A DNA stretch of 64,000 bases from Candidatus Methanoliparum thermophilum (GTDB lineage: Archaea > Halobacteriota > Methanoliparia > Methanoliparales > Methanoliparaceae), in assembly GCA_004212075.1 (NCBI GenBank), contig RXIF01000002.1, forward strand, positions 62,001-126,000, read 5' to 3'. The number at the start of each line of letters is the position of its first letter. Positions within the stretch are counted from its first letter, which is position 1. The position numbers were made by a program, and so were the translations under genes. The notes under the pieces are model-generated. The model was not told the origin of the DNA and ran no database searches. It worked only from the letters and a program-made list of their open reading frames with translations. Below, in pieces: positions 3,589 to 45,601 of this stretch.

Positions 3589-4839
3589 ATGATCGAGAAA
3601 CCTAGAGGAACGAGAGATTTTCTTCCTGAAGAGATGAATATAAGAAGAATTGTAGAGAAAAAGATGAGAGATGCTGCTGAAAGGTGGGGTTATGTAGAGA
3701 TCAAGACACCAACTTTCGAACATCTCGAACTGTTCACGTTAAAATCAGGAGAGAGTATAATCGATGAGATATATGCGTTCAAAGACAAAGGGGGAAGAAT
3801 GCTTGCGTTACGCCCGGAGATCACTGCACCAGTCATCAGAATTTATATCAATAAGATGCAAAATAGACAAAAACCGTTAAGATTATACTATTTTGATAAT
3901 TGTTTCAGATATGAAAGACCACAAAAAGGCCGTTTTAGAGAGTTTTGGCAATTTGGCATTGAATTAATAGGTGGAAGGAGAGATTTAGCTAATTTTGAAA
4001 TGATCGCTCTTTCTGTGGATATCTTAAGATCTATCGGTCTGAATAATTTTGATCTTCATTTAGGTGATGTTTTTCTCCTTAAAAGATCTATAACACGGAA
4101 TAATAACGATATAGATGAAGAAAAACAGCGAAAGATATTCCGATTAATTGATAAAAAAGATTATAACACACTTAATGCCTTTTTAGATGACGAGAGGATA
4201 GATGGGGAAGGTTTGTTCGCTTTATTAGATTTAAAGGATCTATCTACTATAGATGATATAAAAAAAATCTTTGGTGAGGAAGAGAAGGAGGAGATAGAAG
4301 ATATTTTAAAGATATTAGATCTTTTGAGCATATACGATATACATCCCATATTAGATTTTTCTATCGCAAGAGGCTTGGATTATTACAGCGGTATAGTCTT
4401 TGAGATTTATTCTCGCGGGCTTGGTGCCCAGAAACAGATATGTGGTGGTGGTGAGTACGAACTGATCGAATTGTTTGGAGGAAAATCTGAAAACACTAGG
4501 GGTTTTGCCCTCGGTTTTGATAGAATTATGGAAGTTGTTAAAGAAGAGCGCAAAAACGATAAGAGGATACTCGTTGTTTCCACCGAAGAATGTAGAAGGC
4601 ATGCTATCACTCTTTCAAAAGAGCTCAGAAAGCGGTTTATAGTAGAAACTGATATTATGGGACGAAACTTAAAGGCTCAACTCTCCTATGCAAACTCTGT
4701 CGGAATAAATTTTGCGATTATAATTGGAAGAAAAGAGGTAGAAGAGAATCGGTTTACGTTGAAAAATTTAACAAGTGGAGAACAGTTTTATCTGACGATA
4801 GACAGACTGATCGAGATGTTACAAACCTTTGGTTTGTAG
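3589..4839 (+). CDS. hisS: Histidyl-tRNA synthetase
   Basis: This class II synthetase charges tRNA-His. Visible motifs are the N-terminal KPRGTRDFLPEE, motif 1 region, motif 2 FDNCFRYERPQKGRFREFWQ, the histidine-specific ARGLDYYSGIVFEI, and motif 3 with ENTRGFALGFDRIM. The C-terminal anticodon-binding domain runs from about residue 325 (RILVVSTEE). The 416 residues are normal. The last six codons, LQTFGL plus the TAG stop, lie inside a palindromic repeat (4820-4838), so the native C-terminus appears to have been replaced or extended by the element. Confidence 0.95.
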   Translation: MIEKPRGTRDFLPEEMNIRRIVEKKMRDAAERWGYVEIKTPTFEHLELFTLKSGESIIDEIYAFKDKGGRMLALRPEITAPVIRIYINKMQNRQKPLRLYYFDNCFRYERPQKGRFREFWQFGIELIGGRRDLANFEMIALSVDILRSIGLNNFDLHLGDVFLLKRSITRNNNDIDEEKQRKIFRLIDKKDYNTLNAFLDDERIDGEGLFALLDLKDLSTIDDIKKIFGEEEKEEIEDILKILDLLSIYDIHPILDFSIARGLDYYSGIVFEIYSRGLGAQKQICGGGEYELIELFGGKSENTRGFALGFDRIMEVVKEERKNDKRILVVSTEECRRHAITLSKELRKRFIVETDIMGRNLKAQLSYANSVGINFAIIIGRKEVEENRFTLKNLTSGEQFYLTIDRLIEMLQTFGL

Positions 4840-4860
4840 CTCACGAATCGAAGATTCGTG
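4820..4860. repeat. Palindromic element, two hairpins
   Basis: The first unit, TACAAACC-TTT-GGTTTGTA (4820-4838), forms the 3' end of hisS including the stop codon. The second unit, CACGAATC-GAA-GATTCGTG (4842-4860), follows after a GCT-type linker. Both stems are perfect 8-bp inverted repeats with 3-nt loops. The pair may also act as a transcription terminator between the convergent genes, but it belongs to the dispersed family seen at 13 loci. Confidence 0.85.
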
Positions 4861-4875
4861 ATGTTGGATCTTCTC

Positions 4876-6873: not shown

Positions 6874-8817
6874 TTACATGATTACCAATAAAAATCTTGC
6901 AAATAAACCGCCTATTAAAAAGGCGAAGACTGTCTCGAATAATACGATATATATTGCTTTTTTTATGCCTATCTCCCTGACAAGAGCGGCAATTGTTGCC
7001 AAACAAGGAGCATATAACATTGTAGTAAGAGTAAATGTCAGCATTTGAGGTGCAGTCATTATTGCAGATATATTTGTTGTTCCAAATAGAGTTAAAAGCA
7101 TAGTAACGGTTAATTCTTTTCTGACAATACCAAATATCAATACAACACCTGCTAATGGAGGAATTAATAGCCATTCTTCGATTAAAGGACTCAATATATC
7201 TGCTATGGTGCCTGTCAATCCAAACGTATTAAGCAATCCGATAACAAGACTACCGAGGATTATAATAGGAAACGCTATCTTTACAAAATTCATAGTTCTA
7301 TATGTTGCCTGACTTGCTATCACCTTTAAAGATGGTCTCCTAAGAGGTGGCATCTCCATTATAAGACCTAATGGTTCTCCTGGTGCAAATTTATATGCTA
7401 TCTTTCCGAAAAAAGCTATGATAACAAGAATAATAACATAAAGAAGAAAAACATACTCTATACCAAGGTTTTTCCCAACGATACTCATTATCACGATATT
7501 AATCGCGGAACAGGGAACCAAAGTAGATAGAAATATCGAGATCTCTCTCTCTCTTTCCCCCTCAATTATCCTACATCCGAGACATCCTGGTACATTGCAA
7601 CCAAACGAGATGATCAAAGGTATTATTGCCTTTCCATGGACTCCAATCTTGTGCATCAATCCATCCGACAGAAATGCGGCTCTGGCAATATACCCAGTAT
7701 CTTCTATTATCCCGAATAAGAGATAGAACGGTATTATGTACGGAAGAACGATCGTTAATCCGGCAACGAACCCTTCATATATCAAGCCTAAAACACTTGT
7801 GGTAGTAAAAAGATTTAATAAAATCGATTCAAGGAATGCGCTAACAAAATCACCGAATGAGAATATACAATAGAATATAGATAAAAATAAGATTATAAAA
7901 AATATAGAGCCGGTGAAATAATTTGTAAAAAATCTATCTAGTCTATCTATAAACGATTCTTCTGTCTTCAATATCGTCTGTACTTCGTTTACTATCTTAG
8001 TTACAACGAAATATCTTTCTGCTGAGATATATGTGAAGAGATCATCTTTAACACGATCTTTAAGATGTTGGATTATATCATCTACACCTTTTATTTCTAC
8101 ATCTTTTGGTTCGGTTCCTTCTAAGATCTTTATTGCTAACCAACGTTTAGGATATCCTTTATATCTTTCTTCGTTTAATCTTTCACATATCCTTTCGATC
8201 GCATCTTCTAACTCTTTCCTATACTCTATCTTCTTTTGTGGTTTTAATCTGTTTTCATGCAGAACCAAGGTTCCCGCACCTCCTGGCGATTTCTCAACCA
8301 GGAGTGAAGAACGTCTGTTTTCATAGACATATATTGCCTTATCAAGTAATTCTGAAAATCCTTCCCCTTTTATTGCAATTGTTTGAACTACTGGCACTCC
8401 TAAAATCTTGCTAAGTTTATCAATATCGATATAGATGCCTTTAGATCTCGCAAGATCGGCCTGATTTAGTGCTATTAACAGAGGTATCCTCATCTCTATC
8501 AATTGCAAAGTTAAATAAAGGTTTCTTTCAAGCGTGGACGCATCTAAAACGTTTATAACTATATCTGGATTATTTTTAAATATGTAATCCCTTGTTATCT
8601 CCTCTTCCGATGAAAAAGATGAGAATGAATAGATACCAGGGAGATCTATGATATCAATCAAATAATCTCTAAATTTCAATCGTCCTTCTGCCAGCTCTAT
8701 AGTTGTTCCAGGCCAATTTCCTATATGTTGGTGTAATCCTGTCAGATTATTAAAGATTACGCTTTTTCCTACGTTTGTATTTCCTACAAGAGCTATTTTT
8801 ATCTTCTTTTCATTCAT
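6874..8817 (-). CDS. feoB: Ferrous iron transport protein B
   Basis: FeoB is the membrane Fe(II) transporter with a cytosolic GTPase domain. Residues 1-165 show G1 GNTNVGKS, G3 DLPGIYS and G4 NQAD. The C-terminal half holds the two Gate repeats and about eight membrane segments (VLPYIIPFYLLFGIIED, ISFGCNVPGC with the conserved Cys, FGIVRKELTVTML). It overlaps the upstream DtxR-type gene by 8 nt. Residues about 171-190, just after the G domain, are encoded by a palindromic repeat (8259-8304) inserted in frame, which lengthens the linker to the membrane domain. Confidence 0.95.
   Translation of the reverse strand: MNEKKIKIALVGNTNVGKSVIFNNLTGLHQHIGNWPGTTIELAEGRLKFRDYLIDIIDLPGIYSFSSFSSEEEITRDYIFKNNPDIVINVLDASTLERNLYLTLQLIEMRIPLLIALNQADLARSKGIYIDIDKLSKILGVPVVQTIAIKGEGFSELLDKAIYVYENRRSSLLVEKSPGGAGTLVLHENRLKPQKKIEYRKELEDAIERICERLNEERYKGYPKRWLAIKILEGTEPKDVEIKGVDDIIQHLKDRVKDDLFTYISAERYFVVTKIVNEVQTILKTEESFIDRLDRFFTNYFTGSIFFIILFLSIFYCIFSFGDFVSAFLESILLNLFTTTSVLGLIYEGFVAGLTIVLPYIIPFYLLFGIIEDTGYIARAAFLSDGLMHKIGVHGKAIIPLIISFGCNVPGCLGCRIIEGEREREISIFLSTLVPCSAINIVIMSIVGKNLGIEYVFLLYVIILVIIAFFGKIAYKFAPGEPLGLIMEMPPLRRPSLKVIASQATYRTMNFVKIAFPIIILGSLVIGLLNTFGLTGTIADILSPLIEEWLLIPPLAGVVLIFGIVRKELTVTMLLTLFGTTNISAIMTAPQMLTFTLTTMLYAPCLATIAALVREIGIKKAIYIVLFETVFAFLIGGLFARFLLVIM
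8259..8304. repeat. Palindromic element inside feoB
   Basis: GCAGAACC-AA-GGTTC is followed by CTCCTGG (8280-8286) and its inverted partner CCAGGAG (8298-8304). The core GCACCTCCTGGCGATTTCT recurs at 10570-10588 with one change. In feoB it is read in frame and encodes KSPGGAGTLVLHE. It lies in the poorly conserved linker after the GTPase domain, where an insertion could be tolerated. Confidence 0.75.
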
Positions 8818-10551: not shown

Positions 10552-10660
10552 GTAGAACCTACGGTTCCTGCACCTCCTGGTGATTTCTGTTTCTGGATAC
10601 ACAGTCCAGCATTGCGCTGTTACGAATCGAAGATTCGTTACAAACTAAAGGTTCGTAACA
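10552..10660. repeat. Composite palindromic element array
   Basis: The array contains GTAGAACC-TAC-GGTTC, then the core GCACCTCCTGGTGATTTCT shared with the feoB copy. A weak ACAG...CTGT hairpin follows, then TACGAATC-GAA-GATTCGT (10621-10638) and an imperfect TTACAAAC/GGTTCGTAAC hairpin. It fills the whole spacer between the rfcS-like and Cas4-like genes. Read upstream of rfcS it gives a spurious 21-codon N-terminal extension. Confidence 0.75.
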
Positions 10661-10667
10661 TTTGTTT

Positions 10668-11459
10668 TCAGAAAAATTTTGATAATAAACTTCTTGTTAC
10701 TATACACTCATCTTTATATATACAATGCTCACAGAATACTCTATCCTCGCGTTCAGGTAGTCTTCCTCTTCGTATCTTCTTTATCTTTTCTTTAATATTG
10801 AGAACAAGCCGTCTATCATATCTATTTATTTCGACTAATACAGGTCTTCCGCATCTAAAATATTCTACGACACCCTTACTGATAATTCTTCCTGTCTCTT
10901 CTTCTAATAACATAATATATGCTGTTAACTGAGCTCTATCTTCTTTCCAGATGCTTATACTTGGAGAATTTCCGGTTTTTACAATATTTGGAATCTCTTC
11001 ATCGTTAAATATCACAATTTTATCTATTATTCCATGTAGACCCAATCTATCCAAGTATATTCTTCTTTCGACCTCTATGGGTGTCATTAATTGTTTTATC
11101 AGCAATCCATCTGTATTTAACCTGTTCCATAACCGTTCTGCAATCTTTTTAATCTCTCTCTTTACATCCTCTTTTGCAGTACAGATAATTTCTTGATCGA
11201 TATTCTTTAAACCATCTTTATATATCTCTTTTATTCTATCCTCACTCTTTACAAGAGATTTTAAGAGCAACTGTTCTATAGTCTCCCTGTCCTCCCAATC
11301 TATCGAATAAAGGAGATCATCTAACGAGATCTCTTTGATAAAAAGGTGTTTAACAAATCTTTCATCTATCATCTCCCACCTATCTCGATCTCCTTCTCGG
11401 AAATACACGATTCGAGGACAGATCATATATTGCCTAATATCTGATGCGGATACGTTCAT
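10668..11459 (-). CDS. Cas4/Dna2-like PD-(D/E)XK exonuclease (not CRISPR-linked)
   Basis: This protein has the Cas4-like layout: an N-terminal SASDIRQYMICPRIVYF with the first cluster Cys, the nuclease strand GIIDKIVIF with the metal-binding Asp, IVKTGNSPS, the DRAQLTAYIMLLEE helix, and a C-terminal FCEHCIYKDEC trio. Together these suggest a [4Fe-4S] RecB-like nuclease. The Glu expected in the ExK motif is Ile here (I-V-K), as in some archaeal Cas4-like relatives. No cas1 or cas2 is nearby, so a repair or recombination role is more likely than spacer acquisition. Confidence 0.75.
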   Translation of the reverse strand: MNVSASDIRQYMICPRIVYFREGDRDRWEMIDERFVKHLFIKEISLDDLLYSIDWEDRETIEQLLLKSLVKSEDRIKEIYKDGLKNIDQEIICTAKEDVKREIKKIAERLWNRLNTDGLLIKQLMTPIEVERRIYLDRLGLHGIIDKIVIFNDEEIPNIVKTGNSPSISIWKEDRAQLTAYIMLLEEETGRIISKGVVEYFRCGRPVLVEINRYDRRLVLNIKEKIKKIRRGRLPEREDRVFCEHCIYKDECIVTRSLLSKFF

Positions 11460-14048: not shown

Positions 14049-15032
14049 ATGAGTTTTGGAATAGAATTTTTACCAAATATGGAAGTAGAAAAGATCGTAA
14101 ACTACTCATGTTTGGCAGAAGAAAACGGATTTGAGAATATTTGGGTAACAGACCATTATAACAACAGGAACGTTTATGCGGTACTAGCAATGATTGCAGC
14201 AAATACAAATAGGATAAAAATAGGTCCTGGCGTTACAAACAGCTATCAGATTCATCCTGCCGTAACGGCTTCTGCGGTAGCAACGATTAATGAATTATCC
14301 AAAGGACGTGGTGTGTTAGGTATAGGTCCTGGTGATAAAACAACTCTCAGTAAGCTTGGCATAAAGTTTGAAAAACCAGCTAAAAGATTAAAAGAAGCGG
14401 TGGATATAATAAAAGGATTATGGGCAGGAGAGTCGGTAAAATACGATGGAGAGTTTTTTGATATAAATGGTGCAAAGATGGATTTCAAGACAGAAGATAT
14501 TCCTATATACATAGGTGCACAGGGTCCTGTAATGTTAAAGATAGCTGGTATGATCGGAGATGGTGTTTTGATAAATGCATCAAACCCCAAAGATTTCGAG
14601 GTATCGATACCTCTCTGTAAAGAAGGGATGAAAGAGGTTGGTAGGGAAGATTTTGATATAGTTGCTTATACATGTTTCTCGATAGATAAAGAGTCTAAAA
14701 AAGCTAAAAATGCTGCAAAAATCGTTGTTGGATTTATTGTAGCAGGAAGCCCGGATATCGTATTTGAAAGACATAATATCGATTTAGAAGATGTTAAAAA
14801 GATAAGAGAAGCATTAGGACGGTTTGATTTTGGCACTCTTAAAAAATCTGTTACTGATGAGATGTTAGATGCTTTCTCTATATGTGGCTCTCCAGAAGAA
14901 TGTATAGAGAAGATAGAAAAACTTTATAAGGTAGGGGTAACTCAGATCGTTGCAGGAAGTCCGGTAGGCCCAAATATGGAGACGTCGATAAAAATAATCG
15001 GTGAAGAGATATTACAAACCAAGGGTTTGTAA
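14049..15032 (+). CDS. mer: 5,10-methylenetetrahydromethanopterin reductase
   Basis: Mer is the F420-dependent luciferase-fold enzyme interconverting methylene- and methyl-H4MPT in methanogenesis or its reverse. The match to known Mer is strong throughout: FGIEFLPN, VTDHYNNRNVYAVLA, GPGVTNSYQIHPAVTASA, GIGPGDKTTL, IPIYIGAQGPVMLK, DGVLINASNPKDFE, AYTCFSIDKE, IVAGSPVGP. The ATG at 14049 is chosen because GGAGGGG lies eight bases upstream and MSFGIEF fits family N-termini. The final residues LQTKGL and the stop come from a palindromic repeat. The presence of mer argues against an ANME-1 affiliation. Confidence 0.95.
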   Translation: MSFGIEFLPNMEVEKIVNYSCLAEENGFENIWVTDHYNNRNVYAVLAMIAANTNRIKIGPGVTNSYQIHPAVTASAVATINELSKGRGVLGIGPGDKTTLSKLGIKFEKPAKRLKEAVDIIKGLWAGESVKYDGEFFDINGAKMDFKTEDIPIYIGAQGPVMLKIAGMIGDGVLINASNPKDFEVSIPLCKEGMKEVGREDFDIVAYTCFSIDKESKKAKNAAKIVVGFIVAGSPDIVFERHNIDLEDVKKIREALGRFDFGTLKKSVTDEMLDAFSICGSPEECIEKIEKLYKVGVTQIVAGSPVGPNMETSIKIIGEEILQTKGL

Positions 15033-15053
15033 ACCGCAAATCGGAGATTTGTG
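15013..15053. repeat. Palindromic element, two hairpins, at the 3' end of mer
   Basis: TACAAACC-AAG-GGTTTGTA (15013-15031) supplies the last codons and TAA stop of mer. CGCAAATC-GGA-GATTTGTG (15035-15053) follows with one wobble pair. The arrangement matches the hisS 3' copy, with the same order of units and same reading frame. Confidence 0.85.
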
Positions 15054-15162
15054 ATAATTAAAAATAGATAAATAAATATCGTTGTGCAATTATAGAATCA
15101 AATCCAAATTTTAACTTTATTTTTTTATTTATATATACTAAAATAAGACTGGGGTAGATTAC

Positions 15163-17666: not shown

Positions 17667-17731
17667 TTACAAATCGAAGATTTTTGATATTAAAAATCAA
17701 AGATTTTTAGTCCACGAATCAAAGATTCGTG
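17667..17731. repeat. Palindromic element array, three hairpins, at the 3' end of tmk
   Basis: TTACAAATC-GAA-GATTTTTGA, TAAAAATC-AAA-GATTTTTA (17691-17709) and CACGAATC-AAA-GATTCGTG (17713-17731). The last two overlap the final codons of tmk on the minus strand (SRIFDSWTKNL and stop). It is one of three copies in or at the end of tmk. Confidence 0.8.
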
Positions 17732-18407
17732 ATAATTCTTTAACTAGTTTTCTTTCAACTTGTTCTATATTTTCATTAGCATCAATCTTGATAAACCTAC
17801 CGGGTTCCTCTTCGGCAAGTTTTAGATAGTTCTTTTGGACTTCTTCTAAAAACTCTCTCTTTTCAAACAATATCAATCTTTGTTCTCGTTGTCTTATTCT
17901 CTCCATCGCTATATCTATATCTACTACCAACAAAATTGTATAATTAGGAGTTATGGAAAAAGGACTATGTATCTTTTTTAACCATTTTATCGGATCGTTA
18001 CGAATCTCTGATTCGTAGCTCACAAATCTTTGATTTGTGATGCTGAAATATTTTTTGAGAGTAACACCTTGATATGCATACCTACTATCTATATATCTAT
18101 CAACTATTACAATTTTTCCTTGCTCGAGAGATGGTCTGATTAATCTGGATATATGTTCAGAGTGGTCAGCCATGAAGAGAAAAGTCAACGATAGAGGATT
18201 AATATCAGAATTTAAAAATCTTTTTACTGTTATTCCAGTATCGTAATCTGTAGGTTCTTTCGTATAAACTATATTCTTATTTAATTTATTGCAAATCTTT
18301 GATTTGCGATTTACGAATCGAAGATTCGTAATATTTTTAACACTCTCTACCAGCGAGGTCTTTCCTGAACCGTCTATCCCTTCTATGCTTATTAATCTTC
18401 CATCCAT
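17697..18407 (-). CDS. tmk: Thymidylate kinase with two in-frame repeat insertions
   Basis: Tmk phosphorylates dTMP to dTDP. The P-loop is SIEGIDGSGKTS; VYTKEPT, the DRY of IVDRYIDSRYAYQGVTL, and the LID-like RIRQREQR are present. At 236 residues it is about 30 longer than archaeal relatives. Residues about 25-40 (NITNLRFVNRKSKIC) and 122-137 (SITNQRFVSYESEIR) are encoded by palindromic repeats at 18290-18331 and 17999-18039, in the same relative frame. They interrupt SLVESVKN/NIVYTKEPT and LKKYF/NDPIKWLKKIH. The C-terminus is also repeat-derived. The enzyme should still fold if the insertions sit in surface loops. Confidence 0.9.
   Translation of the reverse strand: MDGRLISIEGIDGSGKTSLVESVKNITNLRFVNRKSKICNKLNKNIVYTKEPTDYDTGITVKRFLNSDINPLSLTFLFMADHSEHISRLIRPSLEQGKIVIVDRYIDSRYAYQGVTLKKYFSITNQRFVSYESEIRNDPIKWLKKIHSPFSITPNYTILLVVDIDIAMERIRQREQRLILFEKREFLEEVQKNYLKLAEEEPGRFIKIDANENIEQVERKLVKELSRIFDSWTKNL
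17999..18039. repeat. Palindromic element inside tmk (second insertion)
   Basis: TACGAATC-TCT-GATTCGTA (17999-18017), GCT linker, CACAAATC-TTT-GATTTGTG (18021-18039). Both units have 8-bp stems and 3-nt loops. Read on the minus strand they encode SITNQRFVSYESEIR, which is absent from other thymidylate kinases by my knowledge of the family. Confidence 0.85.
18290..18331. repeat. Palindromic element inside tmk (first insertion)
   Basis: GCAAATC-TTT-GATTTGC (18291-18307) and TTACGAATC-GAA-GATTCGTAA (18311-18331). On the minus strand they encode ITNLRFVNRKSKICN, near-identical in pattern to the other tmk insertion, so both elements entered in the same orientation and frame. Confidence 0.85.
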
Positions 18408-19801: not shown

Positions 19802-19824
19802 TTTTCTCCTTTTGAAAACAAATG

Positions 19825-19889
19825 TTACGAAGCCTTGCTTCGTAGCTCACAAATCTTCGATTTGTGATGCAGGAACTTTGGTTCTGCAT
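19825..19889. repeat. Palindromic element array, three different hairpins
   Basis: TACGAAGC-CTT-GCTTCGTA (19826-19844), then CACAAATC-TTC-GATTTGTG (19848-19866), then ATGCAGGAAC-TTTG-GTTCTGCAT (19867-19889). This is the fullest copy and shows the modular order: a TACGAATC-type unit, a CACAAATC-type unit, and a GCAGGAAC-type unit. The final T pairs into the stop codon region of the aconitase X gene. Confidence 0.85.
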
Positions 19890-21082
19890 TATAAGAGAGA
19901 CTCATTGATACACTCTTCAGTGGTGCCTATCTTTGTCGATATTTTATTCATTGTAGGCATATAGTTGTATGCTTTACCAGAATTGACCATTGCACAAGAA
20001 TAACCTTCCAATGGACTGACTACGGGGCAGGTATCACATATAACTCGCGCACCACTACTCTCTATCTCATCAGTTAACTCTTTATAATTATCTTTTATGC
20101 AACGAGAGGTACATATCATAAGATCTTTTTTTATTTTTTTTCTTTTATTCTTCAGTAATGAATTGATTCTTTTTAACTCGGATACAGAACAATGAGGACA
20201 ACCGATAACTATCAAGTCAGCATCTTTCTTTTTTGTTTTTTTGGTATAAACTTCGTCTATCTCTTTCTTGGTTATCTCGATCTCTTCATTGACATGTCCA
20301 GCATTCGAAGATTTTCGTATATTATTTAAAATATTTTTCTTATTATGCTTTCCGTAATAGAATAGTACAACAGATCCAGAAGATGCTAACCCTGCACCCA
20401 GTTGTTTTAATTCATCATCTAAAGGATCAGATGGTAGATAAAAGTATGGTATTTTATCTTTCACCAAACTACCAACCAAAAAACCAAGAATACCATAATC
20501 TGAGTCCTGAATCTTCTCTTTAACAGTAATCGAGATATTAGGCAATCTGTTCTCTTCCAAAAAATAACCATAATTTGGGGTTTTTCCTATAATAGCGGAT
20601 GCTAAAGCACTTATTCCACTTTCTCTATTTGTTTTAGCTTTTAATACCGAGTTAGCATAGACTATAGCCGAAGATTCTGCCCATGAAAGATTTTCTCCTG
20701 GTTTTATATATCTAAGATAGTACGGCGTACAGGTACAGACATCGGATACACCCATCTTTTTGTAGATTGATAGTATCTCCATCTGCCTCTCGGCAAATAT
20801 AGGATCGATATTCATCGATCTCCACCTCACTCTATCGAGACCAATCGGGTTTAAAGTGGTGTTAACAGCCACTTTTACATCTGTTGAGAGATCTTTTAAG
20901 AATTCCAATCCAGCATCTCCTAGGTTTTTATAAGATGCTCCTGAAACATGAGCATTCTCTATTTTTATTAATTTATCTGCTTTGTATATATCACCTATAG
21001 CCACCAAAATCTCCATCGCTTTTTTTTTGCCCCAGCCTTCTTCTCCATCTAGTATTTTTTCCTCATCTTTTGTTAGATACAT
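19889..21082 (-). CDS. Aconitase X catalytic subunit, probable phosphomevalonate dehydratase large subunit
   Basis: Archaeal aconitase X large subunits dehydrate (R)-5-phosphomevalonate in the modified mevalonate pathway. The 397-residue protein has the family pattern: LTKDEEKILDGEEGWG, VSGASYKNLGDAGLEFL, CTCTPYYLRYIKPGENLSWAESSA, IGCPHCSVSELKRI, CDTCPVVSPL. Cysteines in CTCTP and CDTCP are likely iron-sulfur ligands. The small subunit (about 130 aa) is not adjacent. Placement near GGGP synthase supports a role in isoprenoid lipid supply. Confidence 0.88.
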   Translation of the reverse strand: MYLTKDEEKILDGEEGWGKKKAMEILVAIGDIYKADKLIKIENAHVSGASYKNLGDAGLEFLKDLSTDVKVAVNTTLNPIGLDRVRWRSMNIDPIFAERQMEILSIYKKMGVSDVCTCTPYYLRYIKPGENLSWAESSAIVYANSVLKAKTNRESGISALASAIIGKTPNYGYFLEENRLPNISITVKEKIQDSDYGILGFLVGSLVKDKIPYFYLPSDPLDDELKQLGAGLASSGSVVLFYYGKHNKKNILNNIRKSSNAGHVNEEIEITKKEIDEVYTKKTKKKDADLIVIGCPHCSVSELKRINSLLKNKRKKIKKDLMICTSRCIKDNYKELTDEIESSGARVICDTCPVVSPLEGYSCAMVNSGKAYNYMPTMNKISTKIGTTEECINESLL

Positions 21083-44245: not shown

Positions 44246-45601
44246 ATGGGTAATGGTAATATAATATCAAATTTAAATAGCAAAAAAGAAGTATTCATCT
44301 CTGTATTTCTTGCTATCCTATCTTTTTTTATACCATTACTCGATAAAAAAGTAATAATATTAATTTTAGCTCTATCTCTTGGATTTTTTTTATATATAAA
44401 GGTAAAAATAGTTTATTATCATCTGTTTGAGTCGTTGATTATCTTTTCATGTCTGACCATTATCGGTTTACCCGAATTTTTTATAAGTTATGCTATAATA
44501 ATCTTCTTATTAATATATTGGATAAAAAAGATATATAAAGACGATAAAGATGAGGATTTTCTAATAATACGAGATGTTGCAAATCGAAGATTTGCGGCTC
44601 ACAAACCTTTGGTTTGTGATGTTTTTATAATATTCTTCTCTATTGTTTTGATATTTTTATTCACTCTATTCTACGAACAAATCGGGCTATCAATGATACA
44701 GACCAACCTGGTATTTTTAATATCCATATTGGGGATAATCTTAGCAATACTCTTCTCTACACTCACAGATTATGAAAGGTATGGTTGGGTAATCCCTTCT
44801 ATGTCGATATTTATGATGTGGGTATTTTATTCTTTTGCGTGGATCTGTTCATATATACCTCCACCAAAACGTTACGTAGTCTTCGTTCTTGCCTTGATGA
44901 TAGCGATAGGATATATATCGGTTAAGACAAATCTTTTAGACATATCAGGCGTGCATAGCAGCACTCTGCTTGGCTTGACCGTTATGATTTTTGGAGGCTT
45001 AAGATGGTTTTTCATTCTATTATCCTTCTATATCGTTGGATGCATATCTACGAGATACAAATATGATTATAAATATTCGCTAGGGATAGTAGAAGGGAAA
45101 AAAGGAGAGAGAGGCTACGCCAACGTCTTTGGTAATGGACTTGCAGGTACGATCTGCGCTATAAGCTATGGTATATCACACAGTATAAGTACATTGACAG
45201 GATCGTTTCTCTTATTATTGGCTTTTATTGGATCTATTGCAACAGCAACAGGAGACACCATGGCAAGTGAGATAGGAGAGACTTACAAAGGTAAGACTGT
45301 ATCGATCATAAATTTAAAGCCTGTACCTGCAGGAACTAACGGTGGAATATCAAAATTGGGAGAATTATCTGCTTTAATTGGAGCTTTTATAATCTATTCG
45401 GTTGCTTTAATATCAAATCTACCTATAAATAACTTAGATAGTCTGGTTGCAATCATATTTGGTAGTTTCATTGGAGTAAATATAGATAGCATTTTAGGTG
45501 CTACTATAGAGGATAAGTACCTCAATAATAGCCTTGTAAATCTCATTGCCACATCTATGGGTGGATTGTCTACTGTTCTAATTTATGTGATGATCAGGTA
45601 A
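44246..45601 (+). CDS. DUF92/TMEM19-family membrane protein with repeat insertion
   Basis: A polytopic membrane protein of 451 residues with about ten hydrophobic segments. The DUF92 core is residues about 230-450, with GVHSSTLLGLTVMIFGGLRW, GNGLAGTI, ATATGDTMASEIG and LKPVPAGTNGGISKLGELS. Relatives phosphorylate isoprenols such as phytol, which would fit archaeal lipid or side-chain recycling. Residues about 111-125 (VANRRFAAHKPLVCD), in the loop after the first hydrophobic cluster, come from a palindromic repeat inserted in frame. tbp and this gene are co-transcribed. Confidence 0.85.
   Translation: MGNGNIISNLNSKKEVFISVFLAILSFFIPLLDKKVIILILALSLGFFLYIKVKIVYYHLFESLIIFSCLTIIGLPEFFISYAIIIFLLIYWIKKIYKDDKDEDFLIIRDVANRRFAAHKPLVCDVFIIFFSIVLIFLFTLFYEQIGLSMIQTNLVFLISILGIILAILFSTLTDYERYGWVIPSMSIFMMWVFYSFAWICSYIPPPKRYVVFVLALMIAIGYISVKTNLLDISGVHSSTLLGLTVMIFGGLRWFFILLSFYIVGCISTRYKYDYKYSLGIVEGKKGERGYANVFGNGLAGTICAISYGISHSISTLTGSFLLLLAFIGSIATATGDTMASEIGETYKGKTVSIINLKPVPAGTNGGISKLGELSALIGAFIIYSVALISNLPINNLDSLVAIIFGSFIGVNIDSILGATIEDKYLNNSLVNLIATSMGGLSTVLIYVMIR
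44578..44618. repeat. Palindromic element inside the DUF92 gene
   Basis: GCAAATC-GAA-GATTTGC (44579-44595), a GGCT linker, and CACAAACC-TTT-GGTTTGTG (44600-44618). The whole is read through without a stop and encodes ANRRFAAHKPLVCD, which parallels the peptide ITNxRFVxYESxI of the tmk copies. Confidence 0.85.

Follow-up and report, generated by a model that had tools for sequence, protein, structure and literature searches.

A 43-nt double-hairpin element in the thymidylate kinase gene of Candidatus Methanoliparum thermophilum, very probably a frame-neutral mobile DNA

The thymidylate kinase gene (tmk) of Candidatus Methanoliparum thermophilum, an archaeon whose relatives are oil-degrading, methane-making species, carries two palindromic segments within its reading frame and a third at its 3' end. 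This raises the questions of where such segments came from, how an enzyme gene can take them up without loss of frame, and whether the peptides that they encode are part of the protein. In this study, the locus was examined in a 64,000-nt stretch of contig RXIF01000002.1 (hereafter the window), in the source genome (G000; 1.26 Mb, 86% complete), in a second genome of the same genus (G001), and in genomes of Ca. Methanolliviera, which belongs to the same family within the class Methanoliparia. The combined data make it very probable that the segments are copies of a very small, non-autonomous, frame-neutral DNA element, mobilised in trans, whose inserts are translated and tolerated by the kinase.

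Three element copies in the thymidylate kinase gene

The tmk product matched Pfam Thymidylate_kin (E 7.9e-38), and its top PDB fold matches were thymidylate kinases (TMKs; E ~1e-13). One double hairpin codes for residues 26-40 (ITNLRFVNRKSKICN) and another for residues 123-137 (ITNQRFVSYESEIRN), each segment measuring exactly 15 residues (45 nt), and the C-terminal tail SRIFDSWTKNL is encoded by a third copy (Table 1). When the protein was compared with its counterpart from the same genus (G001, L002; 76% identical over aligned residues), both peptides were found to be missing from the latter, which ends in RCIEAS. The original prediction of separate repeat-derived insertions in tmk, with a further copy replacing the C-terminus, is thereby confirmed and given exact spans; moreover, the close relative does not keep the peptides in the absence of the palindromes, but lacks both together.

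Table 1. Coordinates of tmk and of the element copies in the window
Feature	Position	Strand	Evidence or remark
tmk, thymidylate kinase CDS, 236 aa	17697..18407	(-)	Pfam, PDB fold matches, alignment, model
Element 1, encodes TMK residues 26-40 on the minus strand	18289..18331	(+)	G001 empty site, 45 nt difference
Duplication TA, left of element 1	18287..18288	.	Single copy in G001
Duplication TA, right of element 1	18332..18333	.	
Element 2, encodes TMK residues 123-137	17998..18040	(+)	G001 empty site ...GGGTCGCTG..., 45 nt difference
Flank CG, left of element 2	17996..17997	.	Empty site CG
Flank TG, right of element 2	18041-18042	.	One change
Element 3, provides last TMK residues and stop codon	17690..17732	(+)	
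Duplication TA, left of element 3	17688..17689	.	
Duplication TA, right of element 3	17733-17734	.	
Copy at hisS 3' end, provides C-terminus MLQTFGL and stop	4819..4861	(+)	Duplication TG
Copy at mer 3' end, provides ILQTKGL and stop	15012..15054	(+)	Duplication TA; G001 empty site GAAGAGATAATTAAAAA
Intergenic copy	19825..19867	(+)	Duplication TG
Copy within DUF92 membrane-protein gene, residues 110-124	44577..44619	(+)	Duplication TG

It had also been proposed that the inserts interrupt conserved tmk segments, and this did not hold, since no invariant TMK column falls inside either one. The invariant residues, among them E9, G10, D12, G13, G15, K16, T49, E51, P52, D103, R104, Y105, Q113 and P139, are all intact and outside the inserts. 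Insert 1 comes after helix 16-28, the first of the fold, and before strand 46-50, the second, and insert 2 follows helix 106-123. As shown by alignment and by an AlphaFold model (pLDDT 88.5), the inserts lie between conserved motifs of an intact TMK fold. They are among the weakest blocks of that model, with mean pLDDT of 49 (residues 31-40) and 72 (residues 121-130), while most of the core exceeds 90. These inserts probably form surface loops. Both are read in the same frame, as had been predicted, the element starting at codon position 2; their shared orientation is a weak call, because the element is near-symmetric and only the 3-nt spacer (GCT in one copy and ATT in the other, + strand) is informative.

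We considered whether the peptides might instead be functional, lineage-specific TMK loops, with the palindromes either incidental or kept for regulation. Consistent with such a role, the tmk of Methanolliviera has a second, different, in-frame multi-hairpin array (~50 residues) at the second tmk site. The Methanolliviera gene also carries a 43-nt copy at a third place, in the lid region, with the duplication CT/CT. The peptides are, however, absent from the same-genus TMK, the same element and peptide pattern recurs in several unrelated genes, and the inserted segments are of low model confidence; we therefore hold this explanation to be very improbable. Given that the same-genus G001 lacks them, the second tmk loop has apparently taken up hairpins twice, independently. 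A 15-residue insert in the lid of the G001 TMK (TAKDDVIHSDVFKPI) was also considered as a decayed copy and rejected, since its DNA resembles the element no more than a shuffled sequence does.

A second intact tmk in the genome would have weakened the case of an essential enzyme bearing insertions. None was found in the full sense, but G000 does encode a second Thymidylate_kin-family protein (L209:655-1374, G000:C5; 239 aa; Pfam E 1.5e-22), which is about 30% identical. This paralogue is old, with a counterpart beside the intact tmk in G001 (L210, G001:C133), and the G000 TMK may thus not be strictly essential. In G001 the two TMK-like genes stand in tandem, and the second family protein has been kept across the genus.

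Anatomy of the element and signs of its mobility

A typical 43-mer of G000 reads TTACGAATC-nnn-GATTCGTA-GCT-CACAAATC-nnn-GATTTGTGA, the consensus having been drawn from a gapless alignment of 32 copies (23 from G000 and 9 from relatives). The element is AT-rich and holds two hairpins side by side, each with a stem of 8-9 bp and a loop of 3 nt; the spacing from loop to loop is 22 nt in 22 of the 23 pairs first found in G000. Its termini are imperfect 9-bp inverted repeats, TTACGAATC on the left and GATTTGTGA (that is, TCACAAATC inverted) on the right. Of the stem cells, 97.3% were paired, 13 of the 17 stem pairs had changes on both sides, and the covariation score was 0.402 (compared with 0.163 for shuffled and at most 0.122 for slid controls). 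For the copies in tmk and mer, the predicted folding energy of single-stranded DNA was -10.6 to -12.5 kcal/mol, with z scores of -4.6 to -6.6. An Rfam scan of the window gave no match at the elements, its sole match being one tRNA.

In 21/23 copies of G000, the dinucleotide to the left of the 43-mer was the same as that to its right, whereas permutation gave a mean of 6.1 such copies (p<5e-5). The matching dinucleotides varied (TG 8, CA 6, TA 5, AG 1, AC 1), and TG and CA are largely one target in two orientations, owing to the near-symmetry of the element. Nine isolated copies from relatives (Methanolliviera and G001) likewise had matching dinucleotides, CT among them. Moreover, empty sites were recovered from G001 at both internal tmk positions (...TTTAGTTTACTTTTAATAC for site 1 and ...ATCGGGTCGCTGAAATAA for site 2) and in cofE (...GGATCATCGTCTTTTTTTC), each differing from the filled site by 45 nt; at mer (...GAAGAGATAATTAAAAA) the junction was exact, with an extra single-base difference downstream of the stop. 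From the matching flanks and the empty sites together, each event can be described as the insertion of 43 bp with duplication of 2 bp of target. At tmk site 2, where the flanks are CG and TG and the empty site is CG, a mutation has altered one of the two duplicated dinucleotides. The orthologues of hisS, the tmk C-terminus, the NFACT gene, mevalonate kinase and endonuclease V gave no clean empty-site alignment. Taken together, the duplications and empty sites bear the signature of a 43-nt element that has transposed repeatedly.

That the copies might be products of assembly or contamination has to be weighed, inasmuch as the genomes are draft, fragmented and at least partly metagenome assemblies; yet the element occurs in all five family assemblies, and the empty sites are single-locus with clean flanks, which leaves an artefact hardly credible. 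The covariation of the stems is open to two readings. Transposition may depend on recognition of the hairpins, or DNA polymerase may homogenise the arms by switching templates between them, the stems then being kept perfect without selection. Where copies differ, a change in one arm is indeed accompanied by the complementary change in the other, and the loops occur in both orientations. In one orthologous pair of Methanolliviera (L179:6044 vs L097), the loop is flipped from TTC to GAA with the inner stem unchanged, which suggests template switching or an inversion and speaks for some homogenisation of the arms. However, this flip is a single case, and template switching leaves the 2-bp duplications unexplained; it would complement transposition rather than replace it, and as the account of the perfect stems we consider it rather unlikely.

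Reading phase and the fate of the encoded peptides

Because 43 inserted plus 2 duplicated nucleotides make 45 nt, or 15 codons, the reading frame is kept at each insertion. The original prediction had invoked selection for frame- and structure-compatible insertions; its structural part stands, with the inserts lying between motifs, but there is no need to regard the surviving copies as a minority of lucky length, given that the anatomy itself confers neutrality. What differs among insertions is the phase in which the element is read. When the element began at codon position 2, 37/46 readings were stop-free, compared with 10/46 and 11/46 at codon positions 1 and 3, respectively.

All eight internal genic copies were stop-free, against 42% of readings open overall (p about 0.001), and all eight copies read in a stop-containing phase were at C-termini (Fisher p 1.6e-4 vs internal); the internal and C-terminal groups were drawn by the analyst from the phase table, and these p values are accordingly summary figures rather than blind tests. 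The internal copies reside in tmk (two copies), cofE, iorA, the mevalonate kinase gene, the NFACT/Rqc2 gene, the DUF92 membrane-protein gene and a small secreted-protein-like gene, in the last of these near the N-terminus. The C-terminal hosts are hisS, mer, tmk, one unknown gene, and genes for glutaredoxin-like, ubiX-like, endonuclease V-like and CoaE-like kinase proteins. In HisS and Mer, to which the element supplies the tails, the Pfam domains were matched to or nearly to the end.

As judged from these copies, the phase pattern bears the stamp of purifying selection acting on a translated product, and selection on the 43-nt insertions acts on the phase read, that is, on whether it is stop-free. 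Since internal copies are stop-free and stop-phase copies occur only at C-termini, the element-encoded peptides are very probably translated, and in TMK we infer that they are kept in the mature protein as tolerated loop extensions. A special RNA-level fate for the peptide, as had been suggested, is not needed.

Removal from the mRNA (intron-like, by the archaeal splicing endonuclease) or bypass in translation would leave the protein without the peptides, and the perfect, covarying hairpins could be taken as a sign of it, though a requirement at the DNA level would also produce covariation. A further point in its favour comes from the Methanolliviera assembly GoM_oil, where a hairpin element with 24-nt spacing in ileS (L178:9223-9280, G004:C6) adds 49 nt relative to L046 (NM1b) and shifts the frame; such a copy would have to be removed or recoded, provided that the gene is functional and correctly assembled. 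The gene runs on in another frame for ~800 codons, and no second ileS was found. The copy is explained by a fault in the assembly, by damage to the gene or by a genuine exception (recoding). However, excision would make frame and stops irrelevant, and hence the phase pattern speaks against it: the internal copies are 45 nt and stop-free, and copies with in-frame stops are confined to C-termini, where the stop is used. We thus regard excision or bypass as improbable and favour translation of tolerated inserts.

Spread, mobilisation and comparison with known systems

Double hairpins numbered 23 in 292.5 kb of G000, compared with 0 in a dinucleotide-based shuffle, and the genome thus holds at least 23 copies; because most of this sequence was picked around hairpin matches, the figure is not a genome density. 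The hairpin-core pattern was found 64 times in G000 and 8 times in G001, and three Methanolliviera genomes held 109, 61 and 78 occurrences; the reversed pattern, used as a control, gave none. In a sample of 295 genomes of the phylum, the strict double-hairpin pattern occurred in 5/5 family members and in only two others. An insertion at the C-terminus of the CoaE-like kinase (L138:4938-4980) is common to G000 and G001 (L156), its sequences having diverged; some insertions are therefore older than the split between the two.

Other repeats were seen alongside. A longer, modular intergenic family (GAAAACAGACGTTCTTCACT...GGAGGTGCAGGAACCTTGGTTCTGC; window 8248-8278, 10622-10669 and 19814-19890; L139:4445, L131:4615) holds the 43-nt element in places. 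A single hairpin, CACAAATCTTYGATTTGTG, also occurs in Oscillospiraceae, Bacteroidetes and Haloferax; as its flanks and array layout differ there, it was rejected as the same element and is provisionally regarded as a repeat of its own. The hairpin CACAAATCTTTGATTTGTG belongs to a repeat of three hairpins (CGGCACAAATC...GCCG, CTGAAAATCCTG...CAG, CCAATAACTGCCC...TTGA) present in dozens of copies, often contig-terminal, in Oscillospiraceae SUG144, Clostridia E04__bin30 and others (L035-L127).

Longer relatives of the element were found in Methanolliviera, where 330 kb contained 45 arrays of two to six hairpins vs 1 in a shuffle. A class with 23-nt spacing often abuts start codons and has ATGA/ATGA flanks in many copies, and for a class with 24-nt spacing the empty site differs by 51 nt. 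A clean 2-bp duplication was not seen in all of these longer classes, whose ends can be placed with less certainty than the ends of the 43-mer. In a 44-nt class of double hairpins, the element stops right before the ATG of several genes (L164, L166, L168, L171, L172, L177) and often has ATGA at either side, which looks like insertion directed to start codons. Two orthologous arrays (L168:4108 vs L173:18634) differ by exactly 48 nt, or two hairpins, gained or lost as modules within the array.

We propose that a 43-bp non-autonomous element has inserted repeatedly, mostly at pyrimidine-purine dinucleotides, each insertion duplicating 2 bp of target, and that the mobilising factor would act in trans, probably on the hairpins (as DNA or RNA) as the structure that it sees. 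In a gene-dense genome, the 43+2 frame neutrality could have favoured the spread of the family. The domains Y1_Tnp, DDE_Tnp_1, DDE_3, rve, RVT_1 and Transposase_20 (0/6) were not found in the recovered part of G000 (86% complete), and Y1/RAYT, DDE_Tnp_1, IS630-type DDE_3, rve, RVT_1 and IS110-type partners were accordingly set aside for this genome. Y1_Tnp was likewise absent from G001 and G002 and present in G003 and G004. Element plus duplication amounts to 45 nt here and apparently to 48 and 51 nt in Methanolliviera. A broader view, which we offer tentatively as possible but short of probable, is that these subclasses, with lengths in multiples of three, form a class of minimal frame-neutral transposons served by an unfamiliar structure-recognising enzyme; if so, minimal transposons would colonise coding DNA without shifting the frame and seed loops of 15-17 residues across the proteomes of an archaeal family.

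Protein-coding palindromes are already known, including in one archaeon; a search of open-access papers returned none describing such elements in Methanoliparia. The palindromic repeats of M. jannaschii are reportedly ~100-bp members of old, diverged families, mostly extragenic, of which a few lie inside coding regions and leave these unbroken. Coding palindromes in that archaeon were reported by Suyama et al. 2005, as cited in PMC2229807; they share with the present element an archaeal host and a palindromic structure, and are set apart from it by description.

Rickettsia palindromic elements (RPE) and their Wolbachia equivalents are palindromic selfish repeats found in frame in conserved protein genes, and one host enzyme, Gmk, is translated and active with its insert (PMC2229807, PMC10969869). 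RPE are the closest functional analogue, the 43-nt element also being in frame in several unrelated conserved genes. However, RPE are stem-loop palindromes of 105-150 bp from alphaproteobacteria, with target duplication listed as '?' (PMC2229807), whereas the present element, as compared by description only, is 43 bp with two hairpins and an archaeal host, and its 2-bp duplication is backed by empty sites.

In anatomy, the element comes closest to GC42 of yeast mitochondria, a hairpin of about 42 nt with an AG direct repeat, presence/absence polymorphism, and stems conserved relative to loops; such GC clusters merge into longer arrays, have no known enzyme, and in S. cerevisiae are intergenic or intronic (PMC4478555). 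Both are mobile and consist of two adjacent hairpins of ~40 nt in all. The GC clusters differ in being GC-rich and mitochondrial with AG or ACT repeats, whereas the element described here is AT-rich, has a variable dinucleotide and is often genic.

The small bacterial MITEs RUP and Correia/NEMIS are ~100-155 bp long with TA termini and a 2 bp duplication, and a transposase partner has been proposed for RUP. They are non-autonomous, with terminal inverted repeats and a TA-type target duplication (PMC2229807). The 43-nt element shares the terminal inverted repeats and the target-site duplication (21/23 copies, with empty sites), but is only 43 bp, uses many dinucleotides, and has no partner among the six transposase/RT domains sought in G000; it differs from REP/BIME in that their RAYT-type Y1 transposase was not found in G000.

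New here are the small size of 43 bp, a 2-bp duplication that varies between copies and is matched by empty sites, the 15-codon neutrality that results, and the occurrence as a family in Methanoliparia. This exact anatomy lets a transposon live in essential genes, and the natural filled and empty pairs in related archaea provide test material for how proteins accept new loops. Annotators should bear in mind that where a Methanoliparia protein has a lineage-specific insert of 15 residues or an odd C-terminus, a transposon is its likely source, and an element this small points to a transposition enzyme that acts on it.
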